Positions 6,006 through 60,083 of a stretch of DNA of 64,000 nt are shown piece after piece (position 1 is the first letter of the stretch; every line of letters begins with the position of its first letter). The stretch is from Methanomicrobiales archaeon HGW-Methanomicrobiales-1. Its GTDB lineage: Archaea; Halobacteriota; Methanomicrobia; Methanomicrobiales; Methanospirillaceae. The translations under genes and the position numbers were made by a program. The stretch is from positions 1 through 64,000 of the forward strand of contig PGYM01000004.1 in the NCBI GenBank assembly GCA_002839675.1, given 5' to 3'. Below the pieces are notes generated by a model. It searched no databases, was not told where the DNA came from, and saw only the letters and a list, made by a program, of their open reading frames with translations.

Positions 6006-6971
6006 TTAGTAACTCCGGGTTACAAAATATTCGCCGATGTCCATTAAGAGCTGGCGTTCTTTTGAGTCGGGAAGCAGGGAGAGGTGTTTGTTGCTCGAAG
6101 CCACCAGATCCGCTGCCACTTTTTTGACCTCGTCAATTACCCCGGCATCGGTGAGCTCTTTTATCGCGGCATCGATATCGGCTTTCGAAAGTTCGCGCCG
6201 GTATTTCTGGAGATCGATGCCTTTCTCCCGGGCCTTGATCATGATGATTGTCTGCTTGCCTTCCCGCAGGTCGGAAGCCTGGTCTTTGCCGCTCTTCTCG
6301 GCGGGAGTGAGCAGGTCAATCAAATCATCCTGTATCTGGAATGCAATACCGGTGTTCAGGCCGAAATTGTAGAGGGCCTTTACCTGCGGGGCATTGCCCC
6401 CGGCAAGAACGCCGCCGATACCGGCTGCAGCCGCGTAGAGCACGCCGGTCTTTTTCCTGACCATCTCGATGTACTCGTATTCGCTCACGTCATTGCGGTG
6501 CTCAAACGACATGTCCATGTGCTGTCCCGCACAGATATCGGCGCAGGCGCGGGCGAGCATGGTAACCGAACGGACTTTTGCCGCATCGGTGGCTTTTGCC
6601 ATGCAGATATACTCGAACGCCCGGGCATAGAGCACATCGCCGGCAAGAATGCCGGTCGGCATGTCCCATTTCGTGTGAACGGTCTGGACCCCTCTGCGCA
6701 GGTTGTCGTCATCCATGATATCGTCGTGGATGAGCGTGAACGTGTGCGTGATCTCCAGTGCAAGAGCCGCGTGCATGATCTCATCGGAGCTCCCGTGCCT
6801 CACGGAATCTGCCGCAAGCATAACGACTGCAGGGCGGAGCCGTTTGCCGCCGGCTGCAAGAAGATGGGCTGATGCCTTGTTCAGTTCACCGACCGTATCA
6901 ACAAAATACCGGTCGATCATGCGGTCAATCTCTGTTGCGACCGATTCCAGGTATGGGGAAAGTTCCGACAT
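6006..6971 (-). CDS. idsA: Short-chain isoprenyl diphosphate synthase (GGPP/FPP)
   Basis: The 321-residue trans-prenyl synthase condenses IPP with allylic diphosphates to make the C15-C20 chains of archaeal ether lipids. The first Asp-rich motif is DDIMD (residues 83-87) and the second is QIQDDLID near residue 218; the substrate-binding GGKRLRP lies at 41-47. Residue 78, five positions before the first motif, is Phe, a position known to set chain length in archaeal GGPP synthases, so GGPP is the likely product (inference). It follows the RNase J gene after 13 bases and belongs with fni, ipk and mvk upstream. Confidence 0.93.
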   Translation of the reverse strand: MSELSPYLESVATEIDRMIDRYFVDTVGELNKASAHLLAAGGKRLRPAVVMLAADSVRHGSSDEIMHAALALEITHTFTLIHDDIMDDDNLRRGVQTVHTKWDMPTGILAGDVLYARAFEYICMAKATDAAKVRSVTMLARACADICAGQHMDMSFEHRNDVSEYEYIEMVRKKTGVLYAAAAGIGGVLAGGNAPQVKALYNFGLNTGIAFQIQDDLIDLLTPAEKSGKDQASDLREGKQTIIMIKAREKGIDLQKYRRELSKADIDAAIKELTDAGVIDEVKKVAADLVASSNKHLSLLPDSKERQLLMDIGEYFVTRSY

Positions 6972-6984
6972 TTTAGATCCTCTT

Positions 6985-8322: not shown

Positions 8323-8396
8323 TTTTTTATCTCCTTAGTTTTCTGTAGGTTATTCTGCCTGAATAATTGCCCGGTATGGACATTTACCCTGATTTG

Positions 8397-9488: not shown

Positions 9489-10246
9489 TTTTTCATCCCC
9501 TTTACTGTTGTCCCGCCGTGACCGACTCCTGCAAGGAAGTCGGCTACCCGCGAGACATGAAAGATATCTGACCCGATACCTGCATCTGCAAGTTCGAGCA
9601 GTTCATTGATCTTGCCTCTCATTCCACCGGTGACATCGGTATGCATCGAGTTGCCGATGCGGAGAGTTGGCATCGAGTCCCGGTTAATTTCCGGAACAAC
9701 CCGCTCTCCATCCAGCACTCCCGGTACGTCGGTGGCGAGCCCTACGCGGCTGATTGCTAAACCAACCGCGAGATACCGCACGAGCTGATCGCCCGAAACG
9801 ATACAGGCTCCTTTTGAAAGGTCCATCACCACGTCGCCGTGGATCACAGGGACCATCCCGAGATCAAGCATTGTTTCCAGGTGCCTGCATTCGAAGCTGA
9901 CCAGCCGCCCGTTGTCCGCAATTGCGGTGTGCAGCGGGTGGACGCCAATCGCGGCAACTCCCTGTTCGCGGAGGGTTGCAACAACCTCCTCGTTGAGCCG
10001 GCTGACCGCCCGGTGGGTCACATAGACCCCCTCGGTCTGCCCTTTTACGGCACCAACATCAAGGTGGTACCGCTTTGCCTCGGGATGCCCGCAGGACCCG
10101 GCGCCGTGGATGACCACAATGCCATCCGTGCGTGCCCGGGCAATCGAGCCGGCAATGGATGCCAGCTGGTCGTGATTGATTGCACAATCTGCGCTTTTAT
10201 CGGTGATTACGCTTCCGCCCAGTTTCAGGATGAGGCGATCAGACAT
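9485..10246 (-). CDS. ipk: Isopentenyl phosphate kinase
   Basis: The 253-residue kinase phosphorylates isopentenyl phosphate to isopentenyl diphosphate, the last step of the archaeal variant of the mevalonate pathway. It belongs to the amino-acid-kinase fold: N-terminal LILKLGGSVITDK, then VVIHGAGSCGHP with the catalytic His, and the C-terminal DVTGGMRGKI nucleotide-binding element. The start at ATG 10246 (MSDRLILKLGG) is chosen because it leaves an 8-base overlap with the mevalonate kinase stop; the longer open frame to 10477 is read-through over mvk. Translational coupling to both neighbours is likely. Confidence 0.94.
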   Translation of the reverse strand: MSDRLILKLGGSVITDKSADCAINHDQLASIAGSIARARTDGIVVIHGAGSCGHPEAKRYHLDVGAVKGQTEGVYVTHRAVSRLNEEVVATLREQGVAAIGVHPLHTAIADNGRLVSFECRHLETMLDLGMVPVIHGDVVMDLSKGACIVSGDQLVRYLAVGLAISRVGLATDVPGVLDGERVVPEINRDSMPTLRIGNSMHTDVTGGMRGKINELLELADAGIGSDIFHVSRVADFLAGVGHGGTTVKGMKK

Positions 10247-31141: not shown

Positions 31142-32534
31142 ATCATCCGAAAGGGCGAATGAAGCCCCGGCCGGGAGAGATAATACCGAAGGCATCGCGC
31201 TCCTGATGGGAGACCCGAAAAAAGCCATCGTGAAACTGTCCGGGCCCATGATCATCGCGATGTTCCTGATGTCCACCTACAACATCGTCAACGCGATTTG
31301 GGTTGCCGGTCTCGGCTCCGATGCACTGGCGGCTGTCGGGTTCATCACCCCAATCTTCATGATCCTGATTGGGACCGGCAGCGGGCTCGGTGCCGGCGTC
31401 GCATCCGTCATCTCCCGCCGGATAGGTGCAAAAGATAAGATCGCGGCTGACAATGCAGCAGTCCACGCGATACTCATCACCCTGATCCTGTCAGCAGTCC
31501 TCACCATCCCCTTAATCCTCTTTACCGGCCCGATCGTTCACCTCTTTGGCGCAGGAGAAGTCTCCGGGCTTGCAACTGAATACGGGCAGGTCATCTTCCT
31601 GGGCATGGTACTCATCCTCTTCACTAACGTTGCCTATGCAATTCTCCGAGCTGAAGGAGATGCCAAACGGGCGATGTACGTCATGGCAGCGTCTTCGGTC
31701 ATGAACATGGTCCTCGACCCGCTGCTCATCTACACGGCCGGCATGGGCATTGCCGGGGCGGCATGGGGCATGATCATCTCGCTGGTCATGGTATCGTGCG
31801 TGCTCCTTTACTGGTTCTTCATGAAGCGGGATACCTACGTCACCATCTCATACAAGGCATTCTCGTGGGACAAGAAAACCGTCCGGGACATTCTCGGGGT
31901 CGGCCTGCCGGCCAGCTTCGAATTCTTCCTCATGGCGATCCTCGCGATCTTCATCAACGGCCTGCTGGTCGCAACCGCAGGCACGGACGCTGTTGCAATC
32001 TATACCGCAGGGTGGAGAGTCGTGTTCTTCGCCGTTATCCCTCTCATCGCTATCAGCACATCAGTGATATCCGTTGCCGGTGCTGCCTACGGGGCGCGGC
32101 AGTTTGCAAAACTCAGGACCGTCCACACGTTTTCGGTCTCGCTCGGGATTGCAATCTCGCTGGTCATCAGCGCCCTCACGTTTATCTTTGCCCGGCAGAT
32201 CGCTGTCATCTTCACGTACTCCCCGGACAGCGCCCATCTCGCACCGGAGATTGCCATGTTCCTTGCCACCATGTGCTTCTTCTACCCGTTCATTCCGCCG
32301 GGCATCATGTCGGGATCGGTCTTCCAGGCAACAGGTAAAGGGATGACATCGCTTGTCATCTCGGTCCTGCGGAACCTGGTCTTCATCGCACTCTTTGCCT
32401 ACCTGTTCGGGATCGTGCTCGGGTATGGCGAGCACGGCATCTGGTGGGGAATTGTTGCCGGGGATATCATCGGAGGAACGGTGGCATACATCTGGGCCCG
32501 GGCGTATATCTCGCGGCTGATTGCGAACGGGTAA
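31128..32534 (+). CDS. MATE family efflux transporter
   Basis: The 468-residue protein has twelve hydrophobic segments arranged as two MATE halves (FLMSTYNIVNAIWVAGLGSDALAAVG; LPASFEFFLMAILAIFINGL). It would export cationic drugs or metabolites using an ion gradient. The ATG at 31128, preceded by AGAGGA, is preferred over the longer frame from 31080. Its overlap with marR places it in a regulator-exporter operon. Confidence 0.93.
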   Translation: MPTTESSERANEAPAGRDNTEGIALLMGDPKKAIVKLSGPMIIAMFLMSTYNIVNAIWVAGLGSDALAAVGFITPIFMILIGTGSGLGAGVASVISRRIGAKDKIAADNAAVHAILITLILSAVLTIPLILFTGPIVHLFGAGEVSGLATEYGQVIFLGMVLILFTNVAYAILRAEGDAKRAMYVMAASSVMNMVLDPLLIYTAGMGIAGAAWGMIISLVMVSCVLLYWFFMKRDTYVTISYKAFSWDKKTVRDILGVGLPASFEFFLMAILAIFINGLLVATAGTDAVAIYTAGWRVVFFAVIPLIAISTSVISVAGAAYGARQFAKLRTVHTFSVSLGIAISLVISALTFIFARQIAVIFTYSPDSAHLAPEIAMFLATMCFFYPFIPPGIMSGSVFQATGKGMTSLVISVLRNLVFIALFAYLFGIVLGYGEHGIWWGIVAGDIIGGTVAYIWARAYISRLIANG

Positions 32535-32542
32535 TCTTAATC

Positions 32543-32549
32543 TTTTTTT
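32543..32549 (+). terminator. Short poly-T terminator after MATE gene
   Basis: Seven consecutive T follow the stop codon by eight bases; the following 280 bases are AT-rich and gene-free. Confidence 0.45.
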
Positions 32550-32726
32550 AAAAATTGAACAATTTTGACTGTGATAAAATAAAATGTGAAAATTGCCGTC
32601 TTTTTGTTAGAGAGAGCCACACACATTCAACATCTATTATCATAAAAATCAACTCCAAGCGAAAATATTGAATTGTTGAATCTGTAGGGAGTGCTGTGTC
32701 TTCACGGAAGGATGCACACTTCCAAT

Positions 32727-32740
32727 AAAATATTTAAACC
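32727..32740 (+). promoter_or_regulatory. Likely TATA box for the lipoprotein pair
   Basis: AAAATATTTAAACC matches an archaeal TATA box about 90 bases before the lipoprotein start at 32825, predicting a leader of about 60 bases. Confidence 0.45.
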
Positions 32741-32824
32741 AACTGCCAACGCAACAGAACTCTTGTTTCAAAAAACACAAATGAAAATGAAAGTTTTAAT
32801 CATTTTAAAATAGTAAGTTCAATC

Positions 32825-33583
32825 ATGAGAACACATCCTTTTTTCCCCTGTTTTGCTCTACTTTTGGCGATTATAATAATATCGGGATGCACGGGTTTGG
32901 GTGCGACGACTACAGCAGCACCAACACCTCCCCCCCAAGTTGTATATGTGACCGTTCTTGTGACACCAACACCTACAAATGCATTGGTAAAAGATCCGAT
33001 AATTGGTGTGTGGAGGTTTACGGCGAAGACTGCCTCAAGTGATTACGATTACCGAGTGCAATTTGACGCGAATGGTACATCAATTGAGACGCTGGCATCA
33101 GATTCAACAATATATGTACCTGGAATTTGGAATTTTGCTGGAGATAATACATATATTGTAACCTCCGTTAAAACTGGGGATAAGAAATTGTATACTTATA
33201 ATCCTCAGACAAATACAATTTTTGAAAATGAATATTCGGCATTCATCTATTTCCCATATCAGGGAAGCGTTTGGTTTAACTCTTCAAGCGGGAGTTCATC
33301 CACTCAATCCGGATCTAGCAGTTCAACTCACCTTTCTGGGTATGGTGACGATGTGGTATCATTCACTGCATCCGGAAGTGGATTGAGAATTTTCGATATG
33401 AAATACACTGGACAACATAATTTCGCGGTAAAACTGAAGGATGGAAGTGGGGATTATCTCGCATTATTAGCAAATGAAATTGGTTCATACTCAGGGAAAA
33501 CATCTGAAACATTAACTACTGGAAAATATTTCCTTGATGTAACCGCGAGTGGTCCATGGATTATTGATATATCTTCAATATAA
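32825..33583 (+). CDS. Secreted lipoprotein, paralogue A
   Basis: The 252-residue protein has a lipoprotein signal (lipobox ISGC at about residue 21), the linker PPPQVVYVTVLVTPTPT, a central domain (IIGVWRFTAKTASSDYDYRV), a Ser-rich linker, and a C-terminal domain of about 75 residues (VSFTASGSGLRIFDMKYTGQ... ANEIGSYSGK ... VTASGPW). The C-terminal domain is shared with the next gene. It is presumably attached to the outer membrane face. Ligand unknown; AT-rich codon use. Confidence 0.82.
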   Translation: MRTHPFFPCFALLLAIIIISGCTGLGATTTAAPTPPPQVVYVTVLVTPTPTNALVKDPIIGVWRFTAKTASSDYDYRVQFDANGTSIETLASDSTIYVPGIWNFAGDNTYIVTSVKTGDKKLYTYNPQTNTIFENEYSAFIYFPYQGSVWFNSSSGSSSTQSGSSSSTHLSGYGDDVVSFTASGSGLRIFDMKYTGQHNFAVKLKDGSGDYLALLANEIGSYSGKTSETLTTGKYFLDVTASGPWIIDISSI

Positions 33584-33647
33584 TTTCTTTAGGGACCACC
33601 CGAATAGATCAAAATTAATAATATCTATCGAACCATTTTTTTCACAT

Positions 33648-34478
33648 ATGCAAAATAAATTTATATCCATCCTAATGCTGATTTCTTGCCTCATTTTTAT
33701 ACTGATTGCAGGCTGCACATCAGAGTCGCCTTCAACCTCAACACAAACAATGACCCCGCAGATCGTTTATGTTACTGTAACCGTCACTCCCTTGACTCAA
33801 CCGACGCCCTCATCTACAATTAATTTGATAACCACGAATCCTACACCAATTCCATCATTAACTCCCTCAACTTCCAGTGAAGAAATATCGAACCCTGATG
33901 ATGAGGCTTTTCTTACGATTGTCGCAGACAACAATATTGTGAAACGGATTGATTCTTTAGCAGTTTACGGTTGTGATATCACAGAAGCGGGAAAGATCAA
34001 TCAACTGATAATCTCCAATAAAAAACCTAATAATTCCACGTTACTCAAAGCGCGATCCTACTTGATATCTGCGACAACATACTGCCAGGCTCCGGAAAAA
34101 GCTGCCCGAGATCAGAGCCAGACAAACGAGGATTTAGGTAAATTTTCTGTTCAGATCAAAGAATATACGAATGGAGTACACACCCGGTCTTATGTACTTG
34201 ATCGAGTGCTTGCATCTGTAGATACAATCGGGACATTTAATACGGCAGCTTTCAGCGGGAATGGTGATAATTCCGTTCCGTTCACCATATCTCAAACCGG
34301 ATTAAAAACTATCGAAATGGAATATGGTGGACAACATAATTTTGGGGTAAAATTGGGGGGGGAAATTATCGCGAATGAAATTGGCTCGTACTCTGGGGTG
34401 GAATATAAAACGTTACCCGCTGGGAAATATGTCTTATACGTTACAGCAAGTGGTCCATGGACAATTAAAATTTCCTAA
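33648..34478 (+). CDS. Secreted lipoprotein, paralogue B
   Basis: The 276-residue protein has a lipobox IAGC at about residue 24, the linker TPQIVYVTVTVTPLTQPTP, a helical middle region containing two Cys, and a C-terminal domain nearly superimposable on that of paralogue A (GLKTIEMEYGGQHNFGVKL ... ANEIGSYSG ... VTASGPWTIKIS). The start ATG 33648 is chosen because the signal peptide begins there; the longer frame overlaps the previous gene. Confidence 0.82.
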   Translation: MQNKFISILMLISCLIFILIAGCTSESPSTSTQTMTPQIVYVTVTVTPLTQPTPSSTINLITTNPTPIPSLTPSTSSEEISNPDDEAFLTIVADNNIVKRIDSLAVYGCDITEAGKINQLIISNKKPNNSTLLKARSYLISATTYCQAPEKAARDQSQTNEDLGKFSVQIKEYTNGVHTRSYVLDRVLASVDTIGTFNTAAFSGNGDNSVPFTISQTGLKTIEMEYGGQHNFGVKLGGEIIANEIGSYSGVEYKTLPAGKYVLYVTASGPWTIKIS

Positions 34479-34509
34479 ACAAAATTTTAAAAAAAAGGCA
34501 TTCTGCCAA

Positions 34510-50292: not shown

Positions 50293-50458
50293 CGGGCCCG
50301 GGCCCCATCCCGCTGAAACCCGGGGGCTGGCCAGCTCTCCGCGTAACGGCCCAGCCCTAAACCGGCGATCGCATGCCGTTTGGGAATTGTCCGGAGCAGG
50401 AATGGGCACCGGACCGGGCAGGTACCGGAAATTTTTGGGAGAGGGAGCGATCAGCATA
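50293..50458 (+). repeat. 160-base GC-rich repeat, copy 5
   Basis: Full copy: GGGCCCGGGCCCCATCCCGC, AAACCCGGGGGCTGGCCAGC, CGTAACGGCCCAGCCCTAAA, CGCATGCCGTTTGGGAATTG, CACCGGACCGGGCAGGTACC and a final TTTTTGGGAGAGGGAGCGAT. It begins directly after the acyltransferase stop. Confidence 0.85.
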
Positions 50459-50531
50459 ATTGGCAAAACTCCTGTAATCGTCAATGCATTAATAACAAGA
50501 ACACACAAACCACACACATACAGGAATTGAT

Positions 50532-50816
50532 ATGGATGCACTAGCACTCCTCCGGCAGCACGGGCCGGAACTAAAGGGGCGGTTCGGCGTGGCGAAGATC
50601 GGCATCTTCGGCTCGTTCTCACGCGGAGAGGAGCGACCGGACAGTGATATTGACGTCCTCGTCACGTTCCAGAAGGACAGGAAAACGTTTGATAATTTTA
50701 TGGGAACCAAATTTTATCTCGAAAATCTCTTCAAACGGAAAGTTGATCTCGTGACGGATGCTGCGCTCAAGCCCCTCATCCGCGATCCAATTCTCCAGGA
50801 CGTTGTCTATGCCTAG
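50532..50816 (+). CDS. mntA: MntA-type nucleotidyltransferase antitoxin, module 1
   Basis: The 94-residue protein has the minimal nucleotidyltransferase signature GSFSRGEERPDSDIDVLV (GS-x10-DxD). In MNT-HEPN modules it AMPylates the HEPN toxin to silence it. It overlaps the HEPN gene by eight bases. Codon use and GC are close to those of the region. Confidence 0.92.
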   Translation: MDALALLRQHGPELKGRFGVAKIGIFGSFSRGEERPDSDIDVLVTFQKDRKTFDNFMGTKFYLENLFKRKVDLVTDAALKPLIRDPILQDVVYA

Positions 50817-51162
50817 ATCCCAGCTGCTCTACCTGAACGATATTTCAGAGGCAGCAGGAAATATCCGGTCTTATGTAGGGGACATTACATTCGAGAAATT
50901 CAAAAATGATCGGATGCGGGTCGATGCGGTTGTACGCAATTTTGAAGTTATCGGAGAAGCGGTCAAGAACCTGAGCGATGAGGTGAAGACGCAGTTCCCC
51001 TCAACCGACTGGAAAGCAGTTGCCGGTTTCCGCGATACCCTGATTCATGGATATTTCGGTATTGACTTAGAGATTCTCTGGGACATTATTGTGAACAAAA
51101 TCCCGGTATTGCAAAAAGAGATCTCCGCTATTATCACACACGAGAAAGCGAAGAACAAATAA
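50809..51162 (+). CDS. hepT: HepT-type HEPN ribonuclease toxin, module 1
   Basis: The 117-residue DUF86/HEPN protein carries the R-x4-H-x-Y motif in FRDTLIHGYFGID, as well as VRNFEVIGEAVKNLS. HepT toxins cleave RNA (commonly tRNA ends), and the Tyr of the motif is AMPylated by MntA. ATG 50809 gives the family length; an upstream ATG at 50758 would overlap mntA further. Confidence 0.92.
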   Translation: MPRSQLLYLNDISEAAGNIRSYVGDITFEKFKNDRMRVDAVVRNFEVIGEAVKNLSDEVKTQFPSTDWKAVAGFRDTLIHGYFGIDLEILWDIIVNKIPVLQKEISAIITHEKAKNK

Positions 51163-51239
51163 AAATAAAATTCCGATTCTCTTTTTCTGAGATTTTTCAC
51201 TACGAGAAAATAATCCCCCAACGTCAGGCCGGAAAATTT

Positions 51240-51290
51240 CCCAACCCGGGCCCCACCCGTCCCCGCTGAAACCCGGGGGCTCAGCTTAGG
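51240..51290 (+). repeat. 160-base GC-rich repeat, 5' fragment
   Basis: Only the left part is present: CCCGGGCCCCACCCGTCCCC then CTGAAACCCGGGGGCT. Confidence 0.75.
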
Positions 51291-51568
51291 AGATAGACCA
51301 AGGCTGCTCCCATATCTCCCCCATCCGGGTTCATATCAGCCCCGGATTGCATCATTTCCGGCACCCGACCGGCCAGTTCCGGTGATTTCCCGGCCAGTTC
51401 TTTTTAGGAAATCTTATTTCAACTCCTGATGGGGAAACGGGGCATTTTGAGAGGAGATAAACCTGCCAGTACTGTGCAGTTTGGATTGAGGATAACCGAT
51501 CGCCCTTGAGGGCAGGAGATTGTGAGGCAGAACGGGAAAAAGAACCCCGGTTTTCAGGAAGGTGAATT

Positions 51569-51662
51569 CCGGGCCGGGACCCGGGGGCTGGCCGGTCTCC
51601 GCGTAGACGGCCCGGCCCTGAACCGGTCATCGCAGGCCGTTTGACAATTGCCGGAATATCAG
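51569..51662 (+). repeat. 160-base GC-rich repeat, copy 6 (middle part)
   Basis: Contains ACCCGGGGGCTGGCCGGTCT, GACGGCCCGGCCCTGAACCG, and GCCGTTTGACAATTGCCGG. Confidence 0.8.
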
Positions 51663-51730
51663 AACCGGTTAAGTGTTGTGCGAGAAATGATTTTTCATTG
51701 AACCTCCAATAATAGTTCCGGAGTGATATA

Positions 51731-52252
51731 ATGTCCGATAAAAAACAATCACAATCCCGTATACGATCCGGAATTCTCCCTTGCGTGGGGATACTCTTTG
51801 TTGTACTGCTGAGTGCCGGATGTACCGGTGCATTTTCTGGCATACAGAATACCGTTCCGGGGACTCCGGTTTCGCCAGGTACTGCAACGAATCAGACCCC
51901 CAATAACAGCACATTTGATCATCAGATAACGATGCAGGTTGTCATGGTGGACGAAAAGGCAAATGCTGAATATGCTACGATCTGGCTTACTCCATCTGCA
52001 CGCATTTACACACTTCCAAAAAATATGCCGGACTACAAGACATATATCGCGTTAATGAAACAATCCATAAAAGACGGCTCGTTCCTTACTTTCACGCTTG
52101 ATACTCAGGATTCTTCGCAAGGTTTTTCGATAATTAAGAATGTTGTGAAAGGCGTGCAGCCAACATCTTCTTCAAATGGAGAGAAGGCAGTGCAGGTAGC
52201 GCAACCAGCATCTCCTCCGGATGAAGTAAATCAGGCAAATCAGAAACAATGA
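51731..52252 (+). CDS. Secreted lipoprotein
   Basis: The 173-residue protein has a lipobox SAGC at about residue 33 after a basic N-terminus, a Thr/Pro/Asn-rich linker (TPVSPGTATNQTPNNSTF), and a short domain (ITMQVVMVDEKANAEYATIW ... DYKTYIALMKQSIKDGSFLT). The ribosome-binding site GGAGTGAT precedes the ATG. Function unknown. Confidence 0.75.
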   Translation: MSDKKQSQSRIRSGILPCVGILFVVLLSAGCTGAFSGIQNTVPGTPVSPGTATNQTPNNSTFDHQITMQVVMVDEKANAEYATIWLTPSARIYTLPKNMPDYKTYIALMKQSIKDGSFLTFTLDTQDSSQGFSIIKNVVKGVQPTSSSNGEKAVQVAQPASPPDEVNQANQKQ

Positions 52253-52283
52253 AGATTATCAATGGGGACGAGAAAGCAGATAC

Positions 52284-52346
52284 TGAGCGGGCACCGGACC
52301 GGGCAGGTAACGAAACGTTTGGGAGAGTGAGAGGTACCGCACCGGG
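52284..52346 (+). repeat. 160-base GC-rich repeat, 3' fragment
   Basis: Contains GCGGGCACCGGACCGGGCAG, GTAACGAAACGTTTGGGAGA and GTGAGAGGTACCGCACCGGG. It leads directly into hairpin copy 1. Confidence 0.75.
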
Positions 52347-52350
52347 CACC

Positions 52351-52437
52351 ATGGACACCATTTTTACGATTTCCGGAATCTATTTCCTGTACAATTTTCT
52401 CGTAAGAGATTCCGGAATAACCGGAAATGGTGTCCAT
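52351..52437. repeat. Variable-arm hairpin, copy 1
   Basis: Outer arms ATGGACACCATTT (52351-52363) and AAATGGTGTCCAT (52425-52437) are perfect complements. Inside is the shared core: CCGGAATCT, a loop with CTGTACAATTTTCTCGTAAG, and AGATTCCGG. The core is shared with copies 2 and 3; the outer arms are not. Confidence 0.8.
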
Positions 52438-52461
52438 AGTGTCCAAAACCAAGATCTTTTG

Positions 52462-52564
52462 CCGGGCAGTTGGACAGATCTATTGCGATTTCCGGGATCT
52501 TTTTTCTGTACGTTTTTCTCGTAAGAGATTCCGGAAAACAGGTACTTTCTGTCCAACTGCCCGG
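52462..52564. repeat. Variable-arm hairpin, copy 2
   Basis: Outer arms CCGGGCAGTTGGACAGA (52462-52478) and TCTGTCCAACTGCCCGG (52548-52564) are perfect 17-bp complements unrelated to those of copy 1. The core is TTTCCGGGATCT, a T-rich loop with CTGTACG and TTTTTCTCGTAAG, and AGATTCCGGAAA. Confidence 0.8.
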
Positions 52565-52578
52565 ATTTATCGATCGAA

Positions 52579-52695
52579 GGCCCGGGCCCCACCCCTCCGA
52601 AACCCGGGGGCTGGCCGGGTCTCCGCGTAACGGCCCCGCCCTGAACCGGTCATCGCATGCCGTTTGGTGATTGCCCGGAACAGGGACGGGGGAAT
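52579..52695 (+). repeat. 160-base GC-rich repeat, copy 7
   Basis: Contains GGCCCGGGCCCCACCCCTCC, AAACCCGGGGGCTGGCCGGG, CGTAACGGCCCCGCCCTGAA and CGCATGCCGTTTGGTGATTG. Confidence 0.85.
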
Positions 52696-52742
52696 CTCCC
52701 ACGGAATAAAAAGAAAAAAGAGTTATGGACTGTCCGGTTTCC

Positions 52743-52925
52743 TCAATTACCTATGCAAAAAGGTTTGCACCCTTTGTTCGTTGGCACATTGAGGGCCGCG
52801 GCCTGCTGGATGGGGAGGTCCACCGCGAAATACCATGCCAGTGCGATGATTGTGCCAAGGATTGCCAGCGCAATTATGAAGATGACAAGATTTTTCAGAG
52901 CGTCAGATTGCTGAGGTTCGGTCAT
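52743..52925 (-). CDS. Small single-span membrane protein (60 aa)
   Basis: The 60-residue protein MTEPQQSDALKNLVIFIIAL... has a polar N-terminus, one membrane span (LVIFIIALAILGTIIALAWYF) and a short tail ending NKGCKPFCIGN with two Cys. The composition is clearly protein-like and differs from the repeats on both sides. No family was recognised. Confidence 0.65.
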   Translation of the reverse strand: MTEPQQSDALKNLVIFIIALAILGTIIALAWYFAVDLPIQQAAALNVPTNKGCKPFCIGN

Positions 52926-53239
52926 AGTACAATTATCTTTGTTCGTTTTACTGCTGGAAAAACGTTTACACGTTTAAAGGTGCGAGGAACTCTGCCTGCT
53001 GAAGGGTGTTCTTTGTACTTTGTTTTTAATTGATCATCATCGCGTTTGTTGGCCCGGCCCTGAGTCGGTGATCGCATGCCGTTTGGCAATTGCCCGGAAC
53101 AGCAACGGGCACCGGACCGGGCGGGTATCGGAGATTTTGGGAGAGGGGGCAATACCGTAATGGACTAGGAAGACAAAAACATCCCGTACCATCAAAATGC
53201 CTTTGTAGGGCAACAACAATTATGGTACAGAGGCATCCT
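52926..53239. other. Spacer with repeat copy 8
   Basis: About 120 AT-rich bases, then repeat copy 8 (53050-53155), then the short leader of the antitoxin gene with AGAGG. No gene seen. Confidence 0.55.
53050..53155 (+). repeat. 160-base GC-rich repeat, copy 8 (3' part)
   Basis: Contains GGCCCGGCCCTGAGTCGGTG, CGCATGCCGTTTGGCAATTG, CACCGGACCGGGCGGGTATC and TTTTGGGAGAGGGGGC. Confidence 0.8.
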
Positions 53240-53458
53240 ATGGGAACCGAAGCAGTATCCCTCAATACCGTTCTTGAATACGTGGATAAGCTCGATCTCG
53301 AAGACCAGCAATACCTTCAGGAGATCATCCATCGCAGGCTTATCGACGCAAAACGCCTGGCACTTGTACGCCGGGCAAAACAGGCGAAAGGGAGTGTGCA
53401 GAAACACACGAGCCGGAGCGGAACAGTAAAAGATCTTCTGGCGGATCTGAATGGTTGA
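53240..53458 (+). CDS. Antitoxin of RelE-type module
   Basis: The 72-residue protein (MGTEAVSLNTVLEYVDKLDL) is helical, with LDLEDQQYLQEIIHRRLI and a basic, probably flexible C-terminus, as in antitoxins paired with RelE-like toxins. It overlaps the toxin gene by eight bases. ATG 53240 follows AGAGG; longer starts lie in the repeat. Confidence 0.85.
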   Translation: MGTEAVSLNTVLEYVDKLDLEDQQYLQEIIHRRLIDAKRLALVRRAKQAKGSVQKHTSRSGTVKDLLADLNG

Positions 53459-53726
53459 ACTCATCTGGGACGAGCGATTCAAAAAAATTTACAAGAAGTG
53501 GTTGCACCAGCACCCGGAGCTGAAAGCGCAATTCGCCAAAAAGATTGTCCAGTTTGAAGAAGAACCGTTTCACCCATCATTAAAAACCCATACCTTAAGC
53601 GGGGTCTTAAAGGGACTCTGGTCGTTCAGGATTACGTACGAGCACCGCCTCGTTTTCGATTTTGTTGACGAGAGCCGGACACAGGTTGTATTGATCGATA
53701 TCGGTTCGCACGAAGACGTGTATTAA
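53451..53726 (+). CDS. RelE/ParE-superfamily toxin
   Basis: The 91-residue protein has the compact RelE fold pattern: IWDERFKKIYKKWLHQHPEL, a central FEEEPFHPSLKTHTLSGVLK, GLWSFRITYEHRLVFDFVDE, and the end VVLIDIGSHEDVY. The Arg/Tyr/His set in the C-terminal half suits an mRNA-cleaving YafQ/RelE-type toxin. Confidence 0.9.
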   Translation: MVELIWDERFKKIYKKWLHQHPELKAQFAKKIVQFEEEPFHPSLKTHTLSGVLKGLWSFRITYEHRLVFDFVDESRTQVVLIDIGSHEDVY

Positions 53727-53901
53727 CGCTCAATCTTTTTTGGAAATGGTTCATGGAACACCCACAAGAAAAATCCCGGGCTTTTTTTTAATTCGATTAA
53801 TAATTCGTGAGTCCTGTTTTCCTGAAATTTTCTGGCGTGGCACAGCGGGTGAGTGGAGCGAGTTGAACGATTACGTTCCAACCAGAAAATAATCAACGTA
53901 A

Positions 53902-54549
53902 AACTATCAATCCGTACTGGGTGATACAGTAATCGCTTTCGTTGGCAGTCATTCTTCAGAACTTCTCTTTCATCACTGCATCTCCCGGGATGCGGTACGG
54001 TTTGGAACAATCAGGCCGGACCGGAAATTTTCTGATCCGGCATTTTTACCTGCGTACGAATGGGTGGAAGAAAAAACCGGGTTCTTTCCTTTTTTTTATG
54101 CGGTCGGGCAGATCGATACCGTACTACCCATGACAGGTTATGCGGATAACTGGAGAGTCCTGACGGGCGGTGAGATGATCAAGGGGAGATACCAAAAGAT
54201 CTACAACAGCAAGGGAAATTTTCCCAACCTTGCCGTATTCTCGTTTGATTTCATTGAGGGAATATTCATGGACTCTCAGAGCTGGCACATTGCGCTCAAT
54301 GCCTGCATGAATGGGGGGAACGTGACACCTGCCGAACAACGTATGATCTTCAAACCTTCGTGGACCCGCAGCCGCTGGATCCGGGCAGCCCTGAATGGCA
54401 CTCATTCAGTTCAGCTTGTTGCGCCGGAATTGCCGCTCGCATTAGCAAAACGCGGGTATGTGAGAAATTCGAAAACCAAACGGATTGTTGAGAGAATGGG
54501 TTTTCCGGAAATCGCTGTCAGGAGAGTGAAAGTTTTGAGTTTTTTATGA
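53902..54549 (+). CDS. Hypothetical protein, start unclear
   Basis: The frame is open from just after a TAA at 53899 to the TGA at 54547-54549, up to 215 codons, and reads as protein throughout (VIAFVGSHSSELLFHHCISR; VRFGTIRPDRKFSDPAFLPA; TGFFPFFYAVGQIDTVLPMT; FKPSWTRSRWIRAALNGTHS). The first ATG is far inside; a GTG at 54064 would cut away about 54 coding-like residues. Either a rare start near 53917 (CTG) is used or the 5' end is lost. No domain recognised. Confidence 0.55.
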   Translation, partial: NYQSVLGDTVIAFVGSHSSELLFHHCISRDAVRFGTIRPDRKFSDPAFLPAYEWVEEKTGFFPFFYAVGQIDTVLPMTGYADNWRVLTGGEMIKGRYQKIYNSKGNFPNLAVFSFDFIEGIFMDSQSWHIALNACMNGGNVTPAEQRMIFKPSWTRSRWIRAALNGTHSVQLVAPELPLALAKRGYVRNSKTKRIVERMGFPEIAVRRVKVLSFL

Positions 54550-54563
54550 ATGGGCATGATTGA

Positions 54564-54755
54564 TTTTATGATTCAGAGAGGATTATCAGACAGGAATTCG
54601 ATAGAATTTTTTTTAGGATTTGGAAGCGTCGCGACAATCCGTATTTTAAATCCGTGGAATTCGACGGGTTTAGAAAATTTGCCGGGCTCAACAATTTTAC
54701 CCTGACTCACAGTCAGTGGATTGAAAGGACATCAGCCATTGGTTTCATCTGGTAA
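54564..54755 (+). pseudogene. KilA-N domain remnant
   Basis: The frame lacks a start codon and ends in TAA at 54753. It reads ...IWKRRDNPYFKSVEFDGFRK then FAGLNNFTLTHSQWIERTSA and IGFIW, matching the KilA-N pattern W-x-NP-F-x-EFD-F---AGLN-FTLT---WIE-T-AIG. KilA-N proteins are DNA-binding proteins of phages and mobile DNA. Only about 60 residues remain, so it is a decayed gene. Confidence 0.65.
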
Positions 54756-54879
54756 AGGTAGTGGCCAGGAGTGTATCTCCAATAAGCCCGTAAAATGCCC
54801 GGTTTGCCAATCGGACGAAGGCAGTTTTTTGAGCAGTGAAAAAAGTGTCCACGCTCACAAAAAATACGGTTTTAAATGA
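54756..54879 (+). pseudogene. Zinc-finger-like gene fragment
   Basis: In a second frame, downstream of the KilA-N stop, the sequence encodes NKPVKCPVCQSDEGSFLS then SEKSVHAHKKYGFK and a stop at 54877-54879. The CxxC and two closely spaced His resemble a C2H2 finger. There is no start codon; it may be the tail of the same lost gene or of a neighbour. Confidence 0.4.
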
Positions 54880-55309
54880 TTATTTTCAAAATTGGACTGA
54901 TTTGCGGGGATTTAGACCCTGCAATTTAGCGGGCTTACAGCAGCCCCCTTTTTGGGCTGGATAGGTAGCACGGTCAAGAGGAAATGAAGGCCCTTTTTGG
55001 GGCCCGGAACCGAACACCCTCACGTCCGACACCGAAGTTAATTCACGATCATTTCCGACCCCCTGTTCATGCAATTCCTCCAGGAGTTTTCGATCGAACA
55101 TGAGGTGATCTTCATCCAAACAGAGCCCGTTTTAGGCTTTGTTTGGGAATTTTTGGAGAACGGAGCCCTATACGTGCCCGGATGGGAGATAGGGTGAACT
55201 CTGAAAAAATGGTGGTTTTAGGAGGGTGAACTCATGCGATTTGTTAGAGATTTTTCGTCCGGAGGATTGATTGAAAATTTTTTGAGCGAGGGGCCGGTAA
55301 AATAATTTT

Positions 55310-55460
55310 TGAAAAATTCCTTGTAAAAATTTTGCAACAGAGTCCGCTTGAAATTTTCTGGGCAAGGTTTGATTGAACGGTTCGCGACTTGCAAACGGGA
55401 GCTGAGGGGTCGATTGAAATTTTCCGGACAAGGTTTGATTTATTTTTTCAACCAAGGGTC
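55310..55460 (+). repeat. AT-rich degenerate repeat units
   Basis: Two units share TTGAAATTTTC-GG-CAAGGTTTGATT (55348-55376 and 55413-55440). The same theme, GATCGAAAAATTTCAGGTAAGGTCCG, is found at 138-162. The orientation is the same. Confidence 0.55.
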
Positions 55461-55472
55461 TGGGTATTATTT

Positions 55473-55636
55473 CCGGCCCGGGACCCCACCCATCCCACCG
55501 AAACCCGGGGGCTGACCGACTCTCGCGTAACGGCCCAGCCCTGAGCCGGTCATCCCATGCCGTTTGACGATTGAGCGGTACAGGGACGGGCACCGGACCG
55601 GGCAACTTACCGGATAGATTGGGAGAGCGAGCGATC
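55473..55636 (+). repeat. 160-base GC-rich repeat, copy 9
   Basis: Full copy: GGCCCGGGACCCCACCCATC, AAACCCGGGGGCTGACCGAC, CGTAACGGCCCAGCCCTGAG, CCATGCCGTTTGACGATTGA, CACCGGACCGGGCAACTTAC, and ATTGGGAGAGCGAGCGATCA. Confidence 0.85.
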
Positions 55637-55647
55637 ACTATTATAAA

Positions 55648-55998
55648 TTAGTCATCAGCTTTTTCCAGGAGAGCCTTCACTTCGCGGTTGAGCACAGGCA
55701 GATTGGTTTCCAGTACACCCCAGACAACTTTGTCTGAAATTGTTGCGTACCCATGAATCAGCCGGTTACGAAAAGAAATAATTCTCGATGAGTTGCTGAT
55801 CAACTTTGCAACAGAAGGGTCGTGCTGGATGGCCTGATTGAGCGCCTCTCCGATTATTTCAAACTGGCGTTCGACACCCGATCGAAGTAAAGGATCGTTC
55901 TGGTAATCGGCAAGAGTCTTGCCAGCAGTAAATTGCATAATCAGATCGGAGGCTTCTGCAATATCGAAAAAATATTTCTTTGTTTCATGCGGCTGCAT
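55648..55998 (-). CDS. hepT: HepT-type HEPN ribonuclease toxin, module 2
   Basis: The 116-residue DUF86/HEPN protein has R-x4-H-x-Y in SFRNRLIHGYATISD and VERQFEIIGEALNQAIQ. ATG 55998 gives family length; the longer frame reads over the nucleotidyltransferase gene. It overlaps that gene by 14 bases. The sequence is only moderately similar to module 1, so the two are not a recent duplication. Confidence 0.92.
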   Translation of the reverse strand: MQPHETKKYFFDIAEASDLIMQFTAGKTLADYQNDPLLRSGVERQFEIIGEALNQAIQHDPSVAKLISNSSRIISFRNRLIHGYATISDKVVWGVLETNLPVLNREVKALLEKADD

Positions 55999-56296
55999 AA
56001 ATTTCGACCTGCGTATCTTCAAGGGATTTGCGGAAATACGGATTGCGGACTCCTCCCGGCTCAACAAGATCAACCGGGCGATTGAGCAGGTGTTCGAGAT
56101 CCTCTGCGAGCCCGAAGTATTGATCTGCATGCTCCGAGGGTTGCATCTTTTCAAATTCAACGAGAAGATCAAGATCACTTCTGTCAGGATCAAACCGGTC
56201 ATCGGTCACTGAGCCGAATACTGCGAGACGACGGACCCTGCGGTGAGTGCATATCCTGATTATCTCTTCTAAGTTCTGCTCGATGATGCGGTGCAT
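55985..56296 (-). CDS. mntA: MntA-type nucleotidyltransferase antitoxin, module 2
   Basis: The 103-residue protein has the nucleotidyltransferase signature GSVTDDRFDPDRSDLDLLVE; the spacing between GS and DxD is one residue longer than in module 1. A family-like start MHRIIEQNLEEIIRIC supports ATG 56296. It should AMPylate and neutralise the adjacent HEPN toxin. It ends with LEDTQVEIYAAA. Confidence 0.9.
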   Translation of the reverse strand: MHRIIEQNLEEIIRICTHRRVRRLAVFGSVTDDRFDPDRSDLDLLVEFEKMQPSEHADQYFGLAEDLEHLLNRPVDLVEPGGVRNPYFRKSLEDTQVEIYAAA

Positions 56297-56444
56297 GGGT
56301 AGATCCCGGACTCCTGGGAGTGTGTTTCTTAGTAATGTGGTGATCGTTCTCCCTGATAGTGCTTGCGATAACAAAGCCTCGGATCAATCGGAATCTCCAT
56401 ACGGGAGTGGAAAGTTTTGCCGGTGCCGGCGTTTTTGAGGCTCG

Positions 56445-56646
56445 CAGAAATGCACTTACCGGACCTTTTAGGAGAGTGAGTGATTCTCGAATGGGCTCAG
56501 CTACTCCAGTACCGGAAGGCCCGGTCCCCACCCATCCCGCTGAAACCCGGGGGCTGGCCTCCCTCGCGTAACGGCCCAACCCTGAACCGGTGATCGCATG
56601 CCGTTTGGCAGTTGTGCGGTACACAAGGCACCGGACCGGGCAGGTA
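56445..56646 (+). repeat. 160-base GC-rich repeat, copy 10
   Basis: Starts with the edge AAATGCACTTACCGGACC and GGGCTCAGCTACTCCAGTAC, then AAGGCCCGGTCCCCACCCAT, AAACCCGGGGGCTGGCCTCC, CGTAACGGCCCAACCCTGAA, CGCATGCCGTTTGGCAGTTG, and GCACCGGACCGGGCAGGTAC. It runs into hairpin copy 3. Confidence 0.85.
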
Positions 56647-56751
56647 CCGGGCAACCCGGGCAACCTGAGGGTCATTTCCGGAATCTTTTTTCTGTACAAT
56701 TTTCTCTAAGGACTTTCCGGAAAATGGGTATAAGTTGCCCGGGTTGCCCGG
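56647..56751. repeat. Variable-arm hairpin, copy 3
   Basis: Outer arms CCGGGCAACCCGGGCAAC (56647-56664) and GTTGCCCGGGTTGCCCGG (56734-56751) are perfect 18-bp complements, unlike those of copies 1 and 2. The core TTTCCGGAATC, TTTTTTCTGTACAATTTTCT, and CTTTCCGGAAA is shared. Confidence 0.8.
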
Positions 56752-56756
56752 AAAAT

Positions 56757-56965
56757 ATTCCGGCCCGGGCCCCATCCCCTCCGGAAACCGGGGGCTGGCC
56801 GGCTCTTACGTAACGGCCCAGCCCTGAACCGGCCATCGCGGGGCGTTTGGCAATTGAGCGGTACAGGAACGGGCACCGGAGCGGGCAGGTACCGGAGCGT
56901 TTGGGGAGAGGGGGCGGTACCGGAAAGGGCTCAGCTACTCCGGTACTAGAAGGCAGGCCATGTTC
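56757..56965 (+). repeat. 160-base GC-rich repeat, copy 11
   Basis: Contains CCGGCCCGGGCCCCATCCCC, GGGGGCTGGCCGGCTCTTAC, GTAACGGCCCAGCCCTGAAC, GGGCGTTTGGCAATTGAGCG, CACCGGAGCGGGCAGGTACC, and a right edge GGGCTCAGCTACTCCGGTAC. It is the rightmost member. Confidence 0.85.
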
Positions 56966-57182: not shown

Positions 57183-57845
57183 TTACTCTACTTGATCTTT
57201 AATTAATTCAATAATTTTACTGCGATTTTTATCTCCTATTCGCGCAACTCCTTTTCGAGGCAAAATTGTAAATCGGGGATATTTTGATAAAGTATCACAA
57301 TTCTGATTACCGGTTACAATTACTGCTGAGTGAGTCATTGGTATAGATTCAAAAATACCTTTTGTTATAAAAAATTGTATATAATCACGAGGCAGTAAAA
57401 AAATGATGAGAGTGTATCCATTAACCAAAGTTCGAATTTTTTCAACAAACCCTGTATTTTCATCAAGGTTTTTTAATTCGGTTATTGTTTTTACATTTTT
57501 TGAGTATGGAATGATTGAAATGTTTTCATTTAGTAACCCGTACCTTCCGGAGATAATATGTAGATCTGTTGGAGTAATTGTTACCAATTTATTTGAAAAA
57601 TCCCTTACTTCGGAAAACATACCGGAAAACATATACTTCGCAGGTCTAACATAGGTTTTCAGAATGGATTTATAATTTTCTTCATTTGCCAAATCGTCAG
57701 ATGGAATTGTTGAATTATGCGTTTTTAATAATTTTATAAGAACATCGTCCTTTTCAATATCCATTCCTTTTGTGATCTTATTTGTCCATTTATTTATTTG
57801 AGGTAATTTTATCGCAGAGTCTTCTGTAATTATCAATACTCTCAT
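57183..57845 (-). CDS. Hypothetical protein, DUF6884/YaaA-like motif, next to methylase
   Basis: The 220-residue protein starts MRVLIITEDSAIKLPQINKW and contains DLHIISGRYGLLNENISIIP, resembling the I-S-x-YG-L signature of DUF6884/YaaA-like proteins. YaaA binds DNA and affects oxidative-damage tolerance. It is divergent from the methyltransferase gene across 97 AT-rich bases. All three genes here are about one-third GC, unlike their surroundings, so they probably arrived together. Its role beside a restriction-modification-like pair is unknown. Confidence 0.65.
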   Translation of the reverse strand: MRVLIITEDSAIKLPQINKWTNKITKGMDIEKDDVLIKLLKTHNSTIPSDDLANEENYKSILKTYVRPAKYMFSGMFSEVRDFSNKLVTITPTDLHIISGRYGLLNENISIIPYSKNVKTITELKNLDENTGFVEKIRTLVNGYTLIIFLLPRDYIQFFITKGIFESIPMTHSAVIVTGNQNCDTLSKYPRFTILPRKGVARIGDKNRSKIIELIKDQVE

Positions 57846-57942
57846 TATGTTATTGTTATATCAGTCCGTTATTAGTTCTTTTCACACACTCTATCGGAGT
57901 ATTAAACTGTTCATCTCACTCATTAATCATTAAGTGATTGCC

Positions 57943-59289
57943 ATGATCAGATCGGGAGAGCCTGCATTTATTCATAAAAAAATCGACAATGGCAATAAAA
58001 ATAAACTCCAAGATGCAGATTCTCCAATCCATTCTTGGTATCAATTTGTTTTAGGATATCCGCCTCATCTTGTCCAATATTATTTGTCAAAATTTGATAT
58101 TCAGCCTAGTCAAATTGTGTTAGATCCATTTGCTGGAACGGGAACAACACCTGTCGAATGTATGAAATACGGAATCCGTAACTATGGAATTGAAGCAAAT
58201 CGGATGGCATTCTTTGCATCTAAAGTAAAAACAAATCTCGCTCTTGAACCATCTGAATTAACAGAAGCGTTAGATTTTATTTCACAATCGGCAATATCAT
58301 CTTTCAAAAAACATCACATTAGTGATATATGCCCACTAATTCCTGCAATTAAATCTCAAATGAGACCTATTACCTTAGAGGAAATACCAATTCTGATACC
58401 GGAACAATTGAAAATAATTCCCGCCGGATTCATAAGTGAGAAACCCTTGCATAAAGTCCTAATTTTAAAAGCAATTATTGAAAAAATTGAGGATGAAAAT
58501 ATTCGTGATTTCTTTACCCTTTCATTAGCTACTTTGATCGTTAAAAGGGCAGGAAATATAGGGTTTGGTCCAGAAATTTACAGGAAGAAGGCGAAATTGG
58601 ATATTGATGCATTAGATTTTTTTATTTCAAATTCGAATCGTATGATTCAAGATTTAGAGAAATTTAAAAATGGGCGATCTGTGACAACAATAATTCAAGG
58701 GGATTCACGAAGCGTGAATGATTGTTTGAGTCCCCAATTAAAAGGAAAAATTGATTGTATTATCACATCGCCTCCGTACCCCAATGAGAAAGATTACACA
58801 AGAAGTACCAGATTAGAGAGTGTTCTTCTCGGATTTATCCAAGATAAAAAAGATTTGAGATCCATGAAAGAAAATCTCCTCCGTAGTAATTCTCGAAATA
58901 TTTTCTATAAGGATAAGGATTGTGAGAACGTAAAGAATTTTATCAATATTGAAAATATTGCAAACGAAATTGAAGAAAAACGGATTCGTATGAATAAAGA
59001 TTCGGGTTTTGAAAAGTTGTACCATAAAATCGTTCGTCACTATTTCGGAGGCATGTATCTCCATCTTAAAACATTGAAACCATTTTTATCTCCGAACGCA
59101 AAACTCGCATATGTAGTAGGAGATCAAATGTCCTTCTTTCAGACCCATATACCAACCGCTGATCTTTTAGGAGAAGTCGCTGAGTCTTTGGGGTACAAGG
59201 TATGTGAAATTGAACTATGGCGAACCAGGCATGCATCCGCTACGTCTCGTTCAATCGATGAAAATGTGTTGATTCTTGAAAACCAATGA
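57943..59289 (+). CDS. DNA methyltransferase (amino-MTase)
   Basis: The 448-residue enzyme has the SAM-binding motif I VLDPFAGTGTTPVECMKYG (residues 59-77) and, after about 200 residues probably including the target-recognition domain, motif IV CIITSPPYPNEKDYTRSTRL. S/D-PPY identifies an N4-cytosine or N6-adenine methylase. ATG 57943 is used; a GTG at 57934 is an alternative. It overlaps the next gene by four bases. Confidence 0.88.
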   Translation: MIRSGEPAFIHKKIDNGNKNKLQDADSPIHSWYQFVLGYPPHLVQYYLSKFDIQPSQIVLDPFAGTGTTPVECMKYGIRNYGIEANRMAFFASKVKTNLALEPSELTEALDFISQSAISSFKKHHISDICPLIPAIKSQMRPITLEEIPILIPEQLKIIPAGFISEKPLHKVLILKAIIEKIEDENIRDFFTLSLATLIVKRAGNIGFGPEIYRKKAKLDIDALDFFISNSNRMIQDLEKFKNGRSVTTIIQGDSRSVNDCLSPQLKGKIDCIITSPPYPNEKDYTRSTRLESVLLGFIQDKKDLRSMKENLLRSNSRNIFYKDKDCENVKNFINIENIANEIEEKRIRMNKDSGFEKLYHKIVRHYFGGMYLHLKTLKPFLSPNAKLAYVVGDQMSFFQTHIPTADLLGEVAESLGYKVCEIELWRTRHASATSRSIDENVLILENQ

Positions 59290-60083
59290 GAGGTTGTTTT
59301 ACAATGAAAAAAAATGGAGAACTATCGAATTACGAGAAAGTAATAGAAAATTTATTCTTTAAAAAATATCCAAAAACAGACGCCGATAAAGTTACTGAGA
59401 TCCTTTTTCCAAAAACTGATTATGAAGCCTCTGCTCTTGCAGTAGGTGTAAAAGTTGAAAATATTCCCGATATCACATATACATTTAGAGTACGTTGTCC
59501 GTTTCCAGACTCAATACTAAAAACCGGTCACTGGATTATCGAGCCAAGAGGAAAAGGAAAATATGCATTTGTAAAACTTCAAAGATCCCCTTTCATCTCA
59601 CTACAAGAAGAACTGACCGAAATTGAAATTATGAACGCGCTCCCCGAAATAGTGGAAAAATATACCGCAGATGATGAACAAGGGATGTTGTCATCAATCA
59701 GATATAACAGATTAATAGACATTTTCACAAAGGTAACTTGTTTCCATCTTCAATCTCATATCAGAGCATACAATGAGGGTAAAGGCCAAGTTGAAATTGA
59801 TGAACTTTACGTCGGAATCGATCAAGAAGGAAGAAAATATATTTTTCCCATTGAAGCTAAAAGCCCGGACCAACGAGATAGATTGGGATGGGTCCAGATT
59901 ACCAATATGGTTCAATATGCAAAAGAAGTCTATCCAGAATTGATCTGTCGTCCATTAGGTGCAAAACCTATTGACAAAAACAATATTTATCTTATCGAAT
60001 TTGAAAACATATCTGATGTAAATACGATTAGAATTAAAGAAACACGCCGTTACAAATTGATAAGGAAAAACAAATCATCATAG
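59286..60083 (+). CDS. Probable restriction endonuclease, PD-(D/E)XK type
   Basis: The 265-residue protein has QVEIDELYVGIDQEGRKYIF then PIEAKS (E190-A-K192), the strand-and-ExK pattern of PD-(D/E)XK nucleases. Coupling to the methyltransferase gene by an ATGA overlap supports a type II restriction enzyme. ATG 59304 (MKKNGELSNYE) is a possible later start. No known specificity can be read. Confidence 0.72.
   Translation: MRGCFTMKKNGELSNYEKVIENLFFKKYPKTDADKVTEILFPKTDYEASALAVGVKVENIPDITYTFRVRCPFPDSILKTGHWIIEPRGKGKYAFVKLQRSPFISLQEELTEIEIMNALPEIVEKYTADDEQGMLSSIRYNRLIDIFTKVTCFHLQSHIRAYNEGKGQVEIDELYVGIDQEGRKYIFPIEAKSPDQRDRLGWVQITNMVQYAKEVYPELICRPLGAKPIDKNNIYLIEFENISDVNTIRIKETRRYKLIRKNKSS

Follow-up and report, generated by a model that had tools for sequence, protein, structure and literature searches.

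A mobile type II restriction-modification cassette carries a YaaA/DUF6884-like third gene whose archaeal relatives accompany methylation-based defense systems of unrelated kinds

Why should a gene for a small hypothetical-annotated protein travel with an otherwise ordinary restriction-modification pair? The question is raised by a three-gene cassette at positions 57183-60083 of a 64,000-nucleotide stretch of contig PGYM01000004.1 from the Methanomicrobiales archaeon HGW-Methanomicrobiales-1 (the whole stretch is hereafter the window), where a minus-strand gene for a 220-residue protein, here called the third gene, lies divergent from plus-strand genes for a DNA methyltransferase and a restriction endonuclease (Table 1). 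We find that the association of the third gene's clade with methylation-based defense of unrelated kinds is well supported, and the evidence suggests an unrecognized helper of DNA-methylation-based antiviral systems. The restriction-modification pair and the bacteriophage exclusion (BREX) systems that its relatives accompany are both of already known kinds.

The cassette moves as a unit. In genome G431, another species of the genus, the same three genes are found in the same divergent order (locus L036), and in both genomes the triad is AT-rich, with 34.6% GC in G431 and 33.6% GC over 2.9 kb in the window, whose mean is 51.6%; this is the window's most AT-rich 2.9 kb, the next-lowest nonoverlapping stretch of that length, starting at 1429, having 35.6% GC. 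By blastn, similarity between the window and G431 (~73%) is confined to window positions 57338-60002, and the flanks of the two triads have no common sequence at E≤1e-3. Since the DNA similarity ends inside the cassette, the three genes move together: they transfer as one unit, and the cassette is horizontally acquired. The encoded proteins are 61% (third protein), 76% (methyltransferase) and 66% (endonuclease) identical between the two loci, and the third gene is under purifying selection, with dN 0.278, a dS of 1.348 that is near saturation, and a dN/dS of ~0.2; the endonuclease dS is saturated and no ratio was calculated for it. A preliminary description of this DNA had already noted the four-base overlap of the methyltransferase and PD-(D/E)XK genes (ATGA, 59286-59289), the divergent 220-residue protein with its IISGRYGLL motif (present as HIISGRYGLL in the minus-strand open reading frame) and the high A+T of all three genes, and had proposed their joint transfer, all of which is borne out here.

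To whom, then, is the third gene attached elsewhere? Close relatives (E≤1e-40) occur in three of 294 genomes of the phylum, four of 232 of the class and three of 237 of a neighboring class, and the nonredundant loci number seven: the window, L036, L037, L018, L050, L051 and L013, the other hosts being presumably methanogens, judging by kinship. The last of these, from a Methanomethylovorans metagenome-assembled genome, is the sole locus from a scan of genome contigs that used narrow patterns, so that bacterial members may exist. Methylation-based defense stands beside six of the seven: two have the window-type pair, one has a TdeIII-type pair, two adjoin BREX loci and one lies in a two-methyltransferase locus. 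More precisely, L037 pairs a methyltransferase with a TdeIII-family endonuclease (PF09520, E=4.6e-74), L018 together with L017 holds BrxF, BrxC, PglXI, BrxHI, PglZ and BrxA, L051 holds BrxA, PglZ and BrxHI, and L050 encodes two PF01555 methyltransferases, a tRNA-guanine transglycosylase (TGT)-like protein, another in which a PD...ExK pattern was recognized by eye and a helix-turn-helix (HTH)-type protein, whose gene adjoins the third-gene relative and gives a FUR-family match under the cut-off. Within L050, the stretch 4799-9623, in which the relative lies with the 416-aa TGT-like gene (PF01702, E=1.1e-8), is possibly an unrecognized base-modification defense locus.

A PF01555 match lies within 4 kb of four of the seven close relatives and within 13 kb of six, compared with none and one, respectively, of 17 genomes having only a remote DUF6884-type match, the single exception being G562 at 12.8 kb (Fisher 0.003 and 0.0003; 0.011 and 0.001 with the triads counted once). 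Random placement would put four of seven within 4 kb of PF01555 with P ~2e-6, or 5e-5 with the two triads counted once. The comparison set of 17 excludes G287, whose match has an internal stop, and G274, reclassed as a case; in four of its genomes (G022, G073, G130 and G251) the matches are weak pairwise ones of unverified DUF6884 status. An earlier motif-based methyltransferase scan (five of 19 case loci, none of 13 control loci) had failed to detect PglX genes that are annotated, and the PF01555 comparison took its place. Linkage of homologs to methyltransferases, by which the preliminary description would tell a partner from an accidental neighbor, is thus evident; co-occurrence with this particular methylase, which it also raised, is seen as the same trio in G431 but is not specific, as several unrelated methylation systems are involved.

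The pattern extends to a second clade, in haloarchaea, reached through weak matches in plasmid records. Its members are ~175 aa long and lack an insertion of ~50 aa, and their homology to the methanogen clade is supported by hhalign (E=2.9e-15 over 144 columns) and by hmmsearch (E 1e-10 to 2e-16, seven of seven sequences). Eight plasmid records carry the gene, two of them sharing one protein accession and leaving seven distinct proteins. In six records it follows directly on a BREX-5 pglX, and in five of these it directly precedes pglZ with near-zero spacing; in Natrinema it comes directly after a separately annotated C-terminal part of pglX, in DL31 the BREX-5 pglX is recognized beside it, in Halorarius a helicase gene is next after it, and in Haloplanus and XH8 it lies near a DUF1156 methyltransferase. 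A genome scan found the gene in six of 194 genomes of the class to which G274 belongs: directly after BREX-5 pglX in G687, G783, G089 and G274, as a split copy beside a PglXI-like methyltransferase (27% identical) in G099, and in G694, whose copy is by its coordinates the Natrinema record and is counted once. All 12 distinct haloarchaeal loci therefore adjoin a methyltransferase-type defense gene (BREX-5 pglX in nine, DUF1156 in two, PglXI-like in one). BREX-5-type PglZ itself is encoded in 31 of the 194 genomes (E≤1e-30), and the third gene is present in five of these vs. one of the 163 others (Fisher 4e-4).

Among 30 pglZ loci inspected, the third gene occupies the pglX-pglZ gap in three and pglX abuts pglZ in 12; with contents this variable, the gap acts as a slot that accessory genes can fill. 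Across L102-L131 this gap of haloarchaeal BREX-5 holds variable small cargo, including an unrelated open reading frame of 143-146 aa in L120 and L123. An identification of the BREX-5-linked protein as BrxB was rejected: none of the six haloarchaeal proteins scanned gave a BrxB match, and BrxB is characterized in PMC12839542 as an inactive STAND NTPase.

What kind of protein is this? The window protein scores against DUF6884 (PF21818) with E=1.8e-4 and 22.1 bits, under the gathering cut-off of 30, and against YaaA (PF03883) with E=2.5e-4 and 21.1 bits, under the cut-off of 29.6, the latter match covering residues 17-162; all seven close relatives match both families (E≤0.1). The label DUF6884/YaaA-like given in the preliminary description consequently holds in the sense of a distant relative of both and fails in the sense of membership, the protein being under both cut-offs and without the DUF6884 Cys. 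Relative to the LSAxxG motif of DUF6884, the window's IISGRYG retains the Ser and the last Gly, with Ala replaced by Gly. PADLOC candidate PDC-M57A, a model of 138 positions, matches the window protein over residues 72-172 only (E=3.2e-7) and four other close relatives (E 4e-9 to 2e-5).

According to PMC11701544, CxxxK and LSAxxG are motifs of DUF6884 and may make up its active site, DUF6884 is a distant relative of the DNA-binding protein YaaA, with which it has a basic cleft in common, and the DUF6884 member YfjM was found among interactors of DNA lesions; YaaA itself is described as co-purifying with DNA in PMC4834066. Another DUF6884 example is dpdC (PMC11888242), whose product hydrolyzes dPreQ0 to dADG (PMC12839542). 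Against this background, aligning both defense-linked clades with DUF6884 comparators places Glu or Asp at the Cys position in all 18 members, whereas Cys stands there in all 10 comparators that reach it, an eleventh being truncated. Near the C-terminus, the 18 members also have RxG[VL][AC]R, which is found in none of the 11 comparators. The 18 comprise seven methanogen, seven distinct haloarchaeal plasmid and four genome sequences (G687, G783, G089 and G274). The split copy of G099, which reads GVAP at the C-terminal motif, is excluded. Profile comparison of the clade with the DUF6884 comparators gives E=1.6e-15. With both features constant in 18 of 18, the two clades appear to form a single branch whose site has changed, and the loss of the Cys in all of them makes nitrile chemistry through this residue unlikely. 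Elsewhere in the superfamily, DUF6884 and TGT domains are fused in single proteins (L016 7719-9839 and L044 1420-2736), the Deinococcus copy adjoining dpdE and dpdF, and in L052 (8598-9903) and L053 (8578-9881) a Cys-bearing DUF6884-type gene is followed by a similar gene of 221-232 aa that is GIY-YIG-like by eye, its L052 copy having no Pfam match.

In light of these results, we propose that this mobile type II cassette carries its third gene as a plug-in accessory, whose product would act on DNA bases either as a sensor or as a second effector; for this reading we consider the balance even. The methyltransferase would mark host sites, probably at the N4 position of cytosine, and the endonuclease would cut unmarked DNA. 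Its companion, whose chemistry we infer from YaaA, YfjM and DpdC-type relatives, may bind DNA in the basic cleft of a YaaA fold, with a flipped base held in the pocket that the DpdC-type proteins use to act on modified guanine, and could so act on or sense bases of invader DNA that resists cutting by the partner or is already being damaged by it, a second effector piggybacking on the self-mark of whichever methyltransferase travels with it. A more specific and in our judgment unlikely form of the proposal is a portable base-directed effector (for example a base-excising enzyme whose acidic active site evolved from a DpdC-type Cys site) that uses the partner's methylation mark; if true, one effector family would serve type II, BREX-3, BREX-5 and DUF1156 systems. 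Finding a family annotated only as hypothetical next to methylation-based immune systems that are unrelated to one another points to a common role, as second effector, evasion sensor or safety device, that is missing from present models of restriction-modification and BREX. A limited literature search found no account in which the third gene is recognized as partnering type II or BREX systems, and nothing linking YaaA to BREX or concerning PDC-M57. The Cys-to-acid switch at the superfamily's putative active site permits a concrete test, and loci with and without the gene offer natural comparisons: the window and G431 vs. G047, and BREX-5 operons with it vs. those lacking it.

It is also important to note what weighs against this proposal. 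The third gene is absent from 26 of the 31 genomes with BREX-5-type PglZ. Of the four archaeal pairs whose endonuclease is of this family, two (L020 and L021, the latter ending at a contig end with 9.6 kb upstream of its methyltransferase covered) are likewise without it in the stretches covered. The gene is thus dispensable to these systems: it is optional and not a core BREX component, and for type II systems, where the preliminary description had rightly called it nonstandard, it recurs as an extra. The L013 copy is solitary and adjoins an apparent transposase remnant (by eye), no Klebsiella plasmid bearing a relative of the endonuclease gave a match to the window's third protein, the known loci are only seven plus 12 and all archaeal, and no clade member has a known activity. 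The AlphaFold2 model, built from two sequences only (the window's and that of L013), is poor, with a predicted local distance difference test (pLDDT) score of 59, so the fold rests on the weak profile matches. With this model Foldseek gave no match at E≤0.001 and VIA-align only generic alpha/beta matches (Z up to 7.7); YaaA chains were not among the structure-search results, which carries no weight either way. Searches of viral contigs with the queries A1, A2 and A7 or the endonuclease returned no relatives, and none were found in phages.

How do other explanations fare? That the gene is an accidental neighbor is already disfavored and strikes us as very improbable indeed: the two pairs that do without it would fit, but its recurrence across unrelated systems, the random-placement probabilities and the empty 4-kb radius in all 17 comparison loci argue otherwise. 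Rather more is to be said for an independent antiviral gene that collects in defense islands without cooperating with the methyltransferase, as the solitary L013 copy, the several unrelated kinds of neighbor and the other cargo accepted by the pglX-pglZ gap, such as the frame in L120 and L123, would lead one to expect. Still, we find it somewhat doubtful, for the gene has moved as an exact trio with one restriction-modification pair and in BREX-5 operons is wedged between pglX and pglZ at near-zero spacing.

A regulator at the shared divergent promoter, delaying the endonuclease or sensing damage in the manner of C proteins or WYL-type defense regulators, would account for the divergent layout and the 97-bp promoter region conserved in both triads, and the reported copurification of YaaA with DNA suits it as well. 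The BREX-5 copies, in contrast, directly follow pglX on its own strand and not at a divergent promoter, L050 has a separate HTH-type gene alongside, systems without the third gene are common, and the window protein gave no match to an HTH domain, all of which leaves regulation an unlikely role. An enzyme of the DpdC/ArcS kind acting on 7-deazaguanine in DNA is less probable again, and by a wide measure. Superfamily kinship, as expressed in the DUF6884 profile comparison, speaks for it, together with weak DpdC matches in four of 10 proteins scanned (best E=4.4e-4), the TGT-like gene beside the L050 relative and the DUF6884-TGT fusions of L016 and L044. Yet the DUF6884 Cys is gone from all 18 members, the only TGT in the window's genome sits on contig C1 rather than on the window's contig C4, with a score resembling that of the main copy in the other six genomes, and among 20 neighboring proteins scanned DpdA was the best match only for the TGT-like protein of L050 (E=0.0058).

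The two partners are, by their profile matches, a type II restriction-modification pair of known kind, as first described. The methyltransferase matches PF01555 (E=1.5e-10) and PADLOC MTase_II (E=1.7e-32), its motif I precedes motif IV, and its SPPY probably denotes N4-cytosine methylation; the ATG is the more likely start because the L036 relative begins there. The endonuclease, with its REase_II match (PDLC03404) and no Pfam match, is confined, among the 232 genomes of the class, to that of the window and G431, and is 44-66% identical to other archaeal copies. Conservation of ExK, proposed earlier as a check on the nuclease call, is confirmed for the archaeal sequences complete at the site and not for the remaining one, a Klebsiella plasmid relative with QxK. 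Sequence searches of the PDB gave no meaningful match for the endonuclease or the third protein and only weak ones for the methyltransferase. Small mobilizable plasmids of enterobacteria also carry relatives of the endonuclease, with an annotated modification methylase AplI as partner (L014, Klebsiella plasmid OW849020.1), which is presumably a cytosine-C5 enzyme.

Table 1. Features of the cassette, in window coordinates
Feature	Position	Strand	Remarks
YaaA/DUF6884-superfamily accessory protein, 220 aa	57183..57845	-	Weak PF21818 and PF03883 matches; purifying selection
RKGVAR motif	57240..57257	-	Residues 197-202; common to both defense-linked clades
IISGRYGLL motif	57531..57557	-	Residues 97-105; putative counterpart of DUF6884 LSAxxG
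Glu8 codon	57822..57824	-	At conserved Cys position of DUF6884 (alignment of both clades with DUF6884 comparators)
Divergent promoter region	57846..57942		97 bp; 68/99 aligned positions identical to L036
DNA amino-methyltransferase, probably N4-methylcytosine (m4C)	57943..59289	+	448 aa from ATG 57943, or 451 aa from GTG 57934; PF01555, PADLOC MTase_II
Methyltransferase motif I, DPFAGTGTT	58123..58149	+	Residues 64-72 counted from GTG 57934; invariant except A/C in 3/3 sequences
Methyltransferase motif IV, SPPY	58768..58779	+	Residues 279-282; invariant in 3/3 sequences
Type II restriction endonuclease, PD-(D/E)XK type, 265 aa	59286..60083	+	PADLOC REase_II PDLC03404, E=1.4e-62, residues 13-262
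E190-A-K192, putative (D/E)xK catalytic signature	59853..59861	+	ExK in 3/4 sequences complete there, QxK in 1/4

Around the cassette, window positions 50293-56954 hold GC-rich dispersed repeats of ~40-112 nt between small genes, in seven families, the 61-nt family having seven copies, and the last repeat ends ~230 bp from the third gene's end. Two toxin-antitoxin-like pairs were recognized by eye nearby, at 53090-53726 (RelE-type) and 55648-56374 (nucleotidyltransferase with HEPN/DUF86-type), and there are two other AT-rich islands in the window, at ~1501-4000 (~35% GC) and 32501-34500 (~38% GC).

Set beside known systems, the cassette resembles type II restriction-modification (PDLC03404 with MTase_II) in its adjacent methyltransferase and PD-(D/E)XK endonuclease and differs by the extra divergent YaaA-like gene, while the Klebsiella plasmid endonuclease has an AplI-annotated partner, unlike the window's SPPY-type methyltransferase. 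With the DUF6884/DpdC/ArcS group, the clade has a homologous core and an SxxYG-type motif in common but departs from it in Glu/Asp for Cys, RxG[VL][AC]R and a Pfam score under the cut-off, and unlike the Dpd 7-deazaguanine system the window locus is without a DpdA-type TGT partner. To YaaA (DUF328, PF03883) there is the weak profile match, but under the cut-off and with ties to defense instead of oxidative stress. Defense glycosylases (Brig1, Brig3 and base-excision restriction enzymes) offer a precedent for base-directed effectors, some within restriction-modification, as related in PMC11078745, PMC13160076 and PMC10273834, with no homology to the window's third protein shown. PADLOC PDC-M57A, compared here by its model, gives a partial match to the window protein and also matches four other close relatives. 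In BREX of types 3 and 5, finally, relatives of the third gene sit directly beside pglX or brxA/pglZ, as an addition to the core carried by five of the 31 genomes with BREX-5-type PglZ.

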